Shown here: positions 45,814 through 62,100 of the stretch, one piece after another
Numbering within the stretch: position 1 is the stretch's first letter
How the letters are laid out: every line of letters begins with the position of its first letter
Assembly (NCBI GenBank): GCA_025059945.1
Contig: JANXDC010000003.1
Span: 1 to 64,000 of the forward strand
Direction of reading: 5' to 3'
DNA length: 64,000 bases
DNA from: Bacteroidota bacterium
Lineage (GTDB): Bacteria; Bacteroidota; Rhodothermia; JANXDC01
Made by a program: the position numbers and the translations under genes
The notes under the pieces: generated by a model
Seen by the model: only the letters and a program-made list of their open reading frames with translations
What the model was told of the DNA's origin: nothing
Database searches by the model: none

Positions 45814-45933
45814 GACAATGAGCAATTTACCGGTGGGTTCTCTTCTGTTGCCAGCTCGAGAACGACTTACGCGAAGGTTTCGTTCCCGGTCGGTTGAGCC
45901 CGGGTATCCTCCCTCATATTAGCGCCCCGTATT

Positions 45934-45941
45934 TATTTTTG
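45934..45941 (+). promoter_or_regulatory. Candidate -7 element upstream of the gene at 45963
   Basis: TATTTTTG is an exact TA-N2-TTTG match 21 bases before the start codon. No convincing TTG/TTTG element lies 19-21 bases further upstream, so the promoter is tentative. Confidence 0.3.
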
Positions 45942-45962
45942 CTCGGGCCCAGGGGAGCTCTT

Positions 45963-46583
45963 ATGGAGTATCCGCTCTTTGAGCGTATCACGCAGAGCCT
46001 ACTGCAGGAGCTTTACGCGCGCTGTTTTCAGGTGCGAAGCTTCCGGCAGTGGCGAGATGACCTCATCCGGGCCACGGGGGTTGAAGGAGAGCTGGTCTGC
46101 CCCGGTGCGCTTGAGCCCCCGCTTTTTGTGATCCGGCTCAACGTGGATTGGGATCTTTTTCGCGAACAGCGCCTGGCCCCCCGGTTTCTATCGGAGAACA
46201 GCGTCTCGGAAAGCTCCTCTTTGGCGCGTTTTCGGCCTACACTGGATTTCGAGATCAGCTGGCGCTTCGATCGACGCGCCTTTTCCTCAGATCCGTACCC
46301 AAGCCCGGAGGCTGTGCGCACGGGGCTTGCGCGGTTGCAGGCGGAGCTAGCCCGACTCGAGAACGGGCTCACGGCGGGCATCCTCACCCGTTGGCACGTG
46401 GACTTGTCCAGCTTTCTGGACAAGCGCTTTGTAAGCGATGTGTTGCTGATCGCCTACGGCTCAGACGACCTCGGGACGCTGCGCGCCTGGTCGGAGGTGG
46501 AGGCCGCGCTGCGGCAGCGCGTAGACTACATCGAGGCCGTAAGCCGCCTCCTGCAGGCGGCCCTCACAGATGCCGCTCGGTGA
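45963..46583 (+). CDS. Unrecognised soluble protein
   Basis: 206 residues from the ATG at 45963, chosen for the AGGGGAG site before it; an upstream frame adds 23 residues. The product looks globular and soluble, with mixed strands and helices (PPLFVIRLNVDWDLFREQRL, RPTLDFEISWRFDRRAFSSD, GLARLQAELARLENGLTAGI, VSDVLLIAYGSDDLGTLRAW). No signal peptide, membrane segment or catalytic motif is visible and I do not recognise the family. It overlaps the convergent thioredoxin gene by 20 bases. Confidence 0.6.
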   Translation: MEYPLFERITQSLLQELYARCFQVRSFRQWRDDLIRATGVEGELVCPGALEPPLFVIRLNVDWDLFREQRLAPRFLSENSVSESSSLARFRPTLDFEISWRFDRRAFSSDPYPSPEAVRTGLARLQAELARLENGLTAGILTRWHVDLSSFLDKRFVSDVLLIAYGSDDLGTLRAWSEVEAALRQRVDYIEAVSRLLQAALTDAAR

Positions 46584-47034
46584 CAAGAGGCTCACCCAAC
46601 GACTGCTGCACCCAACGAAAGAGCGCCTCTCGTCCCGGGAAGCCCACAAGCCGGTCTTGTTCTCGTCCGGACTGAAGCCACAGCAGCGTCGGAACCCCCT
46701 GAACCCCGTAGCGGGCGGCGATCTGGGGATGGTAGTCGACGTTCACTTTAAGCACCAACAGGCGCCCCGCGCCGTCTCGGGCCACCTCATCCAGAACCGG
46801 GGCTAGCACCTTACAGGGGCCGCACCAATCCGCATACAGGTCCACCAGCACCGGCACTTGGGCCTCGGTGATGATGCGCTCGAAATCGGCCGTATCCAGC
46901 AGCCGATGCGGCAGTTCCATGCGCAGGGGTCGGCTGCAGCTATGGCATTTCGGACCGTGCGCAAGCCGGTCCAGATCGACGCGGTTCCAAGCCAAGCAGA
47001 TCGGACAGCGAAGGACCACGGTGCGCGCTGCCAT
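46564..47034 (-). CDS. Thioredoxin 2-type protein with N-terminal zinc ribbon
   Basis: 156 residues from the ATG at 47034, which follows AAGGAGG; the ORF's earlier start is inside the upstream gene. The N-terminus has two CxxC pairs (CPICLAW and HGPKCHSCSRPL) forming a zinc ribbon as in thioredoxin 2. The thioredoxin fold follows with the active site VLVDLYADWCGPCKVLAPVL, the cis-Pro in YGVQGVPTLLWLQSG and FPGREALFRWVQQSL. It reduces protein disulfides in the cytoplasm and in E. coli the relative TrxC is oxidative-stress induced. It starts 11 bases after the hibernation-sigma fusion gene. Confidence 0.93.
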   Translation of the reverse strand: MAARTVVLRCPICLAWNRVDLDRLAHGPKCHSCSRPLRMELPHRLLDTADFERIITEAQVPVLVDLYADWCGPCKVLAPVLDEVARDGAGRLLVLKVNVDYHPQIAARYGVQGVPTLLWLQSGREQDRLVGFPGREALFRWVQQSLGEPLVTERHL

Positions 47035-47045
47035 ATCTAACCTCC

Positions 47046-48131
47046 TTAGACAAACTGGAACCACACGCGAAGCTCCTCGGGCACGTCCTGGGCGGGGAGC
47101 TTGTTGTGGATCTTGCGAAATGCCGGTTCCTCGAAAACGTGACGCAAAAAGGCCTCGGCGCGCTCTAGGGTCGTGTGCACCTCATGGGCCGAAAGCCCCA
47201 TGGCGTTGGCGATCTCCTCTTCGCTTAACCCGTGCACGCGATGAAGGGTAAAGATGCGACGCCAGCGCTCCGGCAGCCGCGCCAGAGCGCGCACAACGGT
47301 TTCCACCAGGTCCCGCAGCTCAGCTCGAGCCTGGGGATCTGCGGGTTGCGGATCGGGCAACAGATCAGCCACCACCCAATCTTCGTCCGGATGGGCGAAG
47401 GCGTAGCGCTCATCGGCCGCGGCTGTGGCCGCAAGCACGGGATCCACCTCGGGCACGTCGGTCTCCAGGTGCACTTCCTCCTGCCTCTGGCGCTCGGCTA
47501 GCTCCTGCAGGGTCGCCTCCAGGGCCTCCCAAACATGCCGCACCAGCCAGGCCCGCAGGCTCATATCCGAAGGCTTCTGCTCCAGGGCCGTAAGCGCGTG
47601 CAAAAACCCGTTCTGCAGCACGTCCTGCGGATCTACTCCGCTTAGCTCCAGCCCGCGTGCGGCGGCCTGCAAAACCAGCTCGCGGCGCACCCATCGCCCA
47701 AGCCTCCCTTGGAGCTCACGCACAAGCTCCTGCACCTGCGCCGAGACGGTCCTGGGCAGCTGCTCCCAGAGCTTTTCCTCAAGGGCGAGCTCCTGGCGCG
47801 GAATCCTTCGCATCCGACGTAGAGCAGAAGCCTTGCGGCGCAGCTCCCGGTATCGGCCGATTTGGCGCTTAAGTTCATCAAAGGCGGCCCCTAAAACCCC
47901 GGCGAAGTCATGCCCCCCCTCCTGGGCGATGGCCACGTATTGGGGAAAGCTCATGCGCAAGGAGACCTCGTAGCGCTTGCGCTTCGGACTAAAGGTCAGG
48001 GCCGCGTGCAACCGCGAACCGGACACATCCAGCCCCCGCAGGGAGCGGCGCAGCTGGCCCATCTGGCGGCGCCAGAGGGTGCGCTGGGCCTCCGTGGGCT
48101 TCCAGCCATTCCAGAGCACATGCACCTGCAT
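47046..48131 (-). CDS. HPF/RaiA-like domain fused to sigma-70-like regions
   Basis: 361 residues. Residues about 1-105 match the hibernation-promoting factor fold: a first helix, strand LHAALTFSPKRKRYEVSLRM, then AIAQEGGHDFAGVLGAAFDE and LKRQIGRYRELRRK, including the family Asp-Glu-Leu-x-Arg-Gln. Residues about 133-215 look like sigma region 2 (LSGVDPQDVLQNGFLHALTA and MSLRAWLVRHVWEALEATLQ), though the basic residues expected in region 2.4 are poor. An acidic linker follows, and about 275-333 is a region 4 helix-turn-helix (VRALARLPERWRRIFTLHRV, HGLSEEEIANAMGLSAHEVH). Both halves lie in one uninterrupted frame. A direct link between ribosome binding and promoter recognition is inference. It is cotranscribed with a thioredoxin. 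Confidence 0.85.
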   Translation of the reverse strand: MQVHVLWNGWKPTEAQRTLWRRQMGQLRRSLRGLDVSGSRLHAALTFSPKRKRYEVSLRMSFPQYVAIAQEGGHDFAGVLGAAFDELKRQIGRYRELRRKASALRRMRRIPRQELALEEKLWEQLPRTVSAQVQELVRELQGRLGRWVRRELVLQAAARGLELSGVDPQDVLQNGFLHALTALEQKPSDMSLRAWLVRHVWEALEATLQELAERQRQEEVHLETDVPEVDPVLAATAAADERYAFAHPDEDWVVADLLPDPQPADPQARAELRDLVETVVRALARLPERWRRIFTLHRVHGLSEEEIANAMGLSAHEVHTTLERAEAFLRHVFEEPAFRKIHNKLPAQDVPEELRVWFQFV

Positions 48132-48246
48132 TGCAAGCCTCCGGCTTTTCGTGAACGTCCAAAACCCTTCAAGCGGTGAGCCGAGGCGGTTTTGCTGTCA
48201 AAATGATCTCCGATCCGCGGCTCCGGTCCGTCAAGCTGACAGCCTG

Positions 48247-62026: not shown

Positions 62027-62100
62027 GGGCCCGTAGCTCAATCGGTCAGAGCAGCGGACTCATAATCCGTTGGTTGCAGGTTCGAGTCCTGCCGGGCCCA
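62027..62100 (+). tRNA. tRNA with CAU anticodon (tRNA-Ile2 or elongator tRNA-Met)
   Basis: A 74-base cloverleaf can be drawn. The acceptor stem GGGCCCG pairs with CGGGCCC, the D arm is GCTC-AATCGGTCA-GAGC, the anticodon stem GCGGA/TCCGT surrounds the loop CTCATAA with CAU at 62061-62063, and the T arm is GCAGG-TTCGAGT-CCTGC. The discriminator is A and CCA is not encoded (CTA follows). Similarity to minor isoleucine tRNAs favours tRNA-Ile2, in which C34 would become lysidine, but elongator Met cannot be excluded by eye. Confidence 0.93.

Follow-up and report, generated by a model that had tools for sequence, protein, structure and literature searches.

A predicted HPF–sigma fusion protein of a hot-spring bacterium and its apparent kinship with Orf11 of the mobile heat-resistance island tLST

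The locus considered here lies on a contig of a hot-spring bacterium of the Bacteroidota, in a stretch of 64,000 nucleotides that was analysed as a whole (the window), and it raises the question of whether a domain of the ribosome-hibernation factor HPF/RaiA has really been joined to a sigma-factor-like module in one protein and, if so, what such a protein may do. We know of no other hibernation factor and sigma factor united in one molecule, and the open-licence papers searched contained none on an HPF–sigma fusion, in agreement with the initial annotation, which was aware of no characterisation of this architecture. The gene is an uninterrupted frame of 361 codons starting with ATG, and the features to which the argument refers are the following:

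47046..48131, minus strand: HPF–sigma fusion gene, 361 amino acids, with a full-length homologue in a sister genome
47811..48131, minus strand: HPF/RaiA-like N-terminal domain, residues 1-107 (Pfam S30AE, hhalign and Foldseek)
47487..47741, minus strand: sigma region 2-like segment, residues 131-215, with D-V-L-Q-N of region 2.2 kept and Glu in place of the Asn of ordinary ECF factors (sigma-E N80)
47352..47411, minus strand: conserved inter-domain motif, residues 241-260 (ERYAFAHPDEDWVVADLLPD), defined from alignments
47148..47297, minus strand: sigma region 4, residues 279-328 (Pfam Sigma70_r4_2)
46564..47034, minus strand: zinc-ribbon thioredoxin of the Trx2 type, 156 amino acids, starting 11 nt past the fusion stop

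The combination of an HPF/RaiA-like N-terminus with sigma-like segments, proposed earlier from the letters alone and with broadly the right domain limits, is confirmed by Pfam, NCBIfam and fold comparison, and the computed layout is an HPF-fold domain, a basic linker and an ECF-sigma-like part made up of region 2, an insert and region 4. Residues 12-96 match Ribosomal_S30AE (PF02482) with 24.6 bits (Pfam, E 4e-5), above the curated cut-off of 23.7 bits, which is also exceeded by the sister protein (34.6 bits, E 3e-8). In the C-terminal part, the profiles uphold region 4 (E 1.4e-13) and the ECF assignment (NCBIfam sigma70-ECF, residues 134-331, E 7e-19, exceeding its cut-off), but the region 2 match (Sigma70_r2, residues 155-200, E 1e-4) stays just below threshold, with 22.4 bits against a cut-off of 24; the sister protein reaches 25.5 bits, and the match is absent from the alpha and gamma relatives. 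The same genome encodes a separate ordinary HPF on another contig, to which the fused gene is thus an addition.

The fold and the remote homology of the N-terminal domain point in the same direction. An AlphaFold2 model of moderate quality, built from a three-sequence alignment (mean pLDDT 68), arranges the first 107 residues as strand-helix-strand-strand-strand-helix, the order of HPF (beta-alpha-beta-beta-beta-alpha), and Foldseek against the PDB returned HPF/YfiA chains for this domain (target TM 0.76-0.84, rmsd 2.1-2.7 A; for example 8uu4, 8uu7, 4hei, and 2ywq) and ECF sigma factors for the remainder, while a 15-member family profile run against PDB sequences found sigma factors down to E 1.5e-14 and Thermus HPF at 2.6e-4. 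In profile-profile comparisons (hhalign) with 29 ordinary HPFs, the N-domains gave E 1.7e-7 for the window pair, 1.3e-8 for the beta group, and 1.9e-6 for the alpha group; pooling the members from other Bacteroidota with the alpha and beta members gave 2.8e-11, against 0.08 for the sigma segment of the same proteins, which served as a control. The N-domain of the gamma group, to which the Escherichia coli protein discussed below belongs, has no direct HPF match (hhalign E 0.11) and nevertheless matches the beta N-domains at E 6e-8 in a profile-profile comparison, which indicates that the HPF domain of the E. coli copy has decayed. AlphaFold2 gave no confident N-domain for an alpha-type fusion (pLDDT below 50).

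With a single-sequence HPF score as modest as 24.6 bits, it may be asked whether the protein is an artefact, either of two adjacent genes merged by a sequencing or assembly error or of a chance resemblance to HPF. The independent genome of the same genus (G001; AP024675, Bacteroidetes bacterium KatS3mg041, one complete contig), however, encodes a fusion of the same 361 amino acids, 58% identical end to end, so that an assembly joint is excluded; the close homologue, for which separate genes had been envisaged as the refuting outcome, is itself fused. The fusion also occurs in another order and in another phylum, and a chance resemblance is hard to reconcile with the pooled profile comparison and its control; the probability of an artefact is negligible, and the identity of the fusion and its family membership are close to certain. 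Most of the flanking genes are common to the two genomes and 76-87% identical, and the fusion thus evolves faster than most of its neighbours. The surroundings contain a few further elements: a hypothetical protein without a Pfam match (45894-46583), convergent with the thioredoxin gene and 50% identical in the sister; the upstream interval 48132-48246, partly conserved in the sister (blocks GGCTGTCA and CACCGCTTGA) and possibly a control element; and a tRNA gene at 62027-62100, the sole RNA-family match in the window.

How far the family extends was followed first within the class of the window genome, where, across 245 genomes, the fusion is confined to its own genus, and scans of genome contigs with the single protein and with a two-row alignment recovered the sister genome only. 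Phyla other than Bacteroidota were sampled through plasmids, phages and viral contigs. The idea of a genus-restricted architecture was abandoned when a tblastn search of plasmids gave two matches over most of the window protein, in Shinella and Caulobacter, which led to the mobile heat-resistance island tLST. At the Shinella locus the order is FtsH-ClpK-fusion-HdeD, continuing with rhomboid-ClpP-TrxC-KefB, and the Caulobacter locus is a shorter version (ClpK-like ATPase-fusion-HdeD). With the Shinella protein as query, 302 plasmid records were matched, 271 of them covering at least 80%, mainly from Klebsiella, Enterobacter, Acinetobacter, and Escherichia. In E. coli the corresponding gene is orf11, a 'hypothetical protein' between hdeD-GI and trx-GI, overlapping the latter by 11 bp and present in 152 of 5426 complete genomes (144 at a coverage of at least 80%). 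The fusion of Burkholderiaceae adjoins a divergent hsp20 cluster and itself precedes groESL-dnaK. The single find of the viral-contig scans was an alpha-type tLST fusion on a contig filed as viral (L086/L110, IMGVR_UViG_3300045950_000267) that may instead be a piece of a plasmid; the phage search returned only an ordinary sigma match.

The proteobacterial relatives align with the window protein from end to end at 21-26% identity and have, between regions 2 and 4, the motif F-x-[YFWH]-x-[QH]-P-[DE]-[DE] or a close form of it, the counterpart of ERYAFAHPDEDWVVADLLPD, which in these and in the stand-alone relatives described below reads F-x-Y-x-Q-P-D-E-x-x-x-x-x-D. Homology between tLST Orf11 and the window fusion is collinear over the full length, linked through the alpha and beta members, and on this evidence from alignment the two almost certainly belong to one family. 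The distribution across genomes, which the initial annotation had named as a check, shows that the HPF–sigma architecture is no local oddity, the family being spread over Bacteroidota and Proteobacteria and including orf11 of tLST.

Another order of Bacteroidota holds seven further fusions in five genomes, most of them in chromosomal clusters that resemble tLST (L127:3193-13553, L129, L130:3091-8308, and L107:1694-7547). The arrangements are DnaJ-Trx-ClpB/ClpK-fusion-rhomboid-ClpP-KefB, Hsp20-DnaJ-FtsH-Trx-fusion, and fusion-YfdX-fusion-FtsH, and one further fusion is divergent from an hsp20 gene; the cluster with rhomboid, ClpP and KefB shares 61% identity in ClpP and 46% in rhomboid with the tLST of Shinella. 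A second, diverged copy in the genome of L127 (L128:7264-8376) lies on a short contig without proteostasis neighbours, and apart from this copy all the fusions with readable surroundings stand beside chaperone, protease or thioredoxin genes. These chromosomal clusters are possibly a clue to the origin of the mobile island.

The link to stress that had been read into the zinc-ribbon thioredoxin next to the fusion finds support, since the same pair occurs in tLST, whose Trx-GI is 39% identical to the window thioredoxin. The order fusion-then-thioredoxin is common to the window and the sister genome, and among 60 genomes of the class the Trx2-type zinc-ribbon thioredoxin is found only in these two fusion-bearing genomes, from which the pair seems to travel together. 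Two additional Zn-ribbon matches in the class were rejected as thioredoxins, being kinase-like proteins.

A second connection with the ribosome comes from relatives of the sigma half that lack the HPF domain. These stand-alone proteins, of about 211-292 amino acids, occur in at least 10 genomes of other families of the class, carry the same insert motif (mostly WEWYQPDD...WEDV), and ten of them form one clade in the phylogeny (100/99). Three families (f3, f14 and f52) have an eRF1-like protein, baeRF_family10, encoded by the gene that follows; the stand-alone relative is directly upstream of it at L104:6679-8587, L106:6039-8009, L108:6044-8040, L105 and L109. Genes for baeRF proteins neighbour HPF genes, and both products have been proposed to idle ribosomes together (Burroughs and Aravind 2019, PMC6514570); in the main text of that paper 'sigma' occurs only in the reference list, so that it describes no partner of sigma type. 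Two ties therefore connect the sigma half with factors that idle ribosomes, one being its fusion to HPF and the other its place beside baeRF10.

Whether the sigma half is an ordinary sigma factor can be judged from the residues of region 2, whose polymerase-contacting and promoter-contacting sides we take from general knowledge of ECF sigma structures. At the position of Asn80 of sigma-E (reference sequence checked against 1or7), Asn is present in 31 of the 33 ordinary ECF factors recovered by the same searches and in none of the 18 fusions or 10 stand-alone relatives; Glu occupies it in 11 of the fusions, that of the window included, and Arg in all the stand-alone forms. The window and sister proteins retain the Gln of region 2.2, which is replaced by Asp in 15 fusions and by Gly in the stand-alone forms; the region 4 DNA-contact residues are uninformative, varying too much even among ordinary ECFs. 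By sequence comparison, the polymerase-contact segment (region 2.2) has kept its overall shape and the promoter-contact side of region 2 has changed, which bears out, now as a measurement against ordinary ECFs, the earlier remark that region 2 looked weak in promoter-contact residues. Having lost the Asn, the fusion departs from an ordinary ECF sigma in one of the features examined, and the protein may still be functional at RNA polymerase.

These residues weigh on three other readings of the protein. In the first, it is an ordinary, though divergent, ECF sigma of a proteostasis regulon, with HPF as a fused anti-sigma or localisation domain; the strong ECF superfamily match, the name 'sigma-70 family RNA polymerase sigma factor' that RefSeq gives to several relatives, and the heat-shock gene neighbours would agree with this, but the Asn is missing from every fusion and stand-alone relative, and the search for a shared promoter found none. 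A sigma-32-like element, CTTGAAA-N13-[ATG]CCTATCT, precedes the divergent hsp20 operons of Burkholderiaceae (L076:5534-5789, L081:4493-4741, and L082:3519-3765; CTTGAAA-N13-CCTATCT) and is absent before the fusion genes themselves. This reading is distinctly unlikely. The second would make it a sigma mimic of the PhyR kind, with the sigma half of the fusion engaging an anti-sigma factor or some other regulator in place of RNA polymerase. Weak region 4 matches to the sigma-like domain of PhyR speak for this very improbable alternative, against which stand the conserved region 2.2 contact segment, the lack of a Pfam receiver-domain match in the window protein, and the fact that no cognate anti-sigma gene was noticed beside the members examined. 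The third is a dual hibernation factor that parks ribosomes and RNA polymerase together in lethal stress, so that both would stay idle and be protected, its sigma half blocking the core in place of initiating transcription, with no choice of promoter. The loss of the Asn in all fusions with the shape of the core-binding segment kept, the strongly acidic sigma part (net charge -11 to -29), and the occurrence in survival islands and not among growth genes lend it some weight; nevertheless, the region 4 helix-turn-helix of the window protein is better kept (E 1e-13) than a pure plug would need, and no survival phenotype of orf11 has been reported in E. coli, which leaves it rather unlikely.

The most likely function is that of a stress regulator coupling the state of the ribosome to RNA polymerase. 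The HPF domain would dock in the decoding centre of idle ribosomes, and the sigma-like module would make its contacts with RNA polymerase through its regions 2.2 and 4, dispensing with the usual recognition of the -10 element. Under heat or oxidative stress, the extent to which ribosomes are occupied would then determine whether that module has access to the polymerase, and in this way a proteostasis regulon, or the operon that the fusion shares with the thioredoxin, might be tuned; the initial annotation had likewise envisaged release or sequestration of a transcription factor according to ribosome occupancy. The domains and the fold, full-length collinear homologues, the position of orf11 between hdeD-GI and trx-GI in E. 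coli, the order of fusion and thioredoxin in the window and its sister, the proteostasis neighbours at the Shinella, Burkholderiaceae and Bacteroidota loci, the ribosome link provided by the stand-alone relative beside baeRF_family10, and a region 2 that retains the shape of segment 2.2 and loses the Asn are all consistent with this coupling. On the other side, the Asn loss also speaks against an ordinary sigma, the E. coli protein has a decayed HPF domain, the alpha-type model lacks a confident N-domain, and the window locus has only the thioredoxin in common with tLST: no ClpK, sHsp20, YfdX or HdeD gene was found near the fusion, and no YfdX in either the window genome (G000) or its sister. 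In addition, orf11 was not among the genes whose removal lowered the survival of heat or chlorine in overnight cultures of E. coli MG1655 lacZ::LHR (PMC8407380), the only experiment on any member of the fusion family found in the literature. Such a silent deletion is easier to explain by a regulatory role, or by the decay of the HPF domain in that copy, than by a direct effector, and it proves neither. As an explanation of the whole, the stress regulator falls slightly short of an even chance; the coupling mechanism itself is put forward with more reserve, and it is likewise only tentatively that HPF–sigma proteins can be proposed as regulators of a new class, forming a physical connection between the idle ribosome and RNA polymerase in proteotoxic stress, and as the regulatory or protective part still missing from the picture of tLST.

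What was already known consists of single genes annotated as sigma factors or hypothetical proteins. Orf11 is entered as of unknown function in the searchable papers, and a 2021 review of tLST places it below 30% identity to any protein of known function. For a related island of Methylobacillus, one review mentions a sigma-24-like factor. New here are the recognition of the HPF domain, the placing of the window gene and tLST Orf11 in one family, and the tLST-like clusters on Bacteroidota chromosomes. If true, the coupling would let translation status act directly on transcription during heat shock, and Orf11 gains a testable identity in an island that gives food-borne and clinical Enterobacteriaceae tolerance to heat and chlorine; the chromosomal relatives, in turn, extend tLST-like gene sets beyond the groups from which the island is mainly reported, the beta- and gammaproteobacteria.

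Compared with known systems, the fusion resembles HPF/RaiA/YfiA (PF02482) in fold, domain score and basic C-terminal helix, although long HPF has a dimerisation domain where the fusion has its sigma-like module. With ECF sigma factors (sigma-E, SigH, and AlgU), which provide the best structural and profile matches, it has the region 2/region 4 layout in common, but it lacks the region 2 Asn and carries an insert with the QPDE motif between the two regions. The baeRF or Balon-type factors are ribosome-inactivating eRF1-like proteins whose genes are tied to HPF, and here baeRF_family10 adjoins the stand-alone sigma halves. Orf11 of E. coli differs from the window protein in its decayed HPF domain and in having no detectable region 2, and its setting is a mobile island of many genes, as against the fusion and thioredoxin alone in the window; nevertheless, it is collinear throughout, 22% identical to the window protein and 24% to that of the sister, with the same insert motif, and the zinc-ribbon thioredoxin gene lies directly downstream of it, as in the window.
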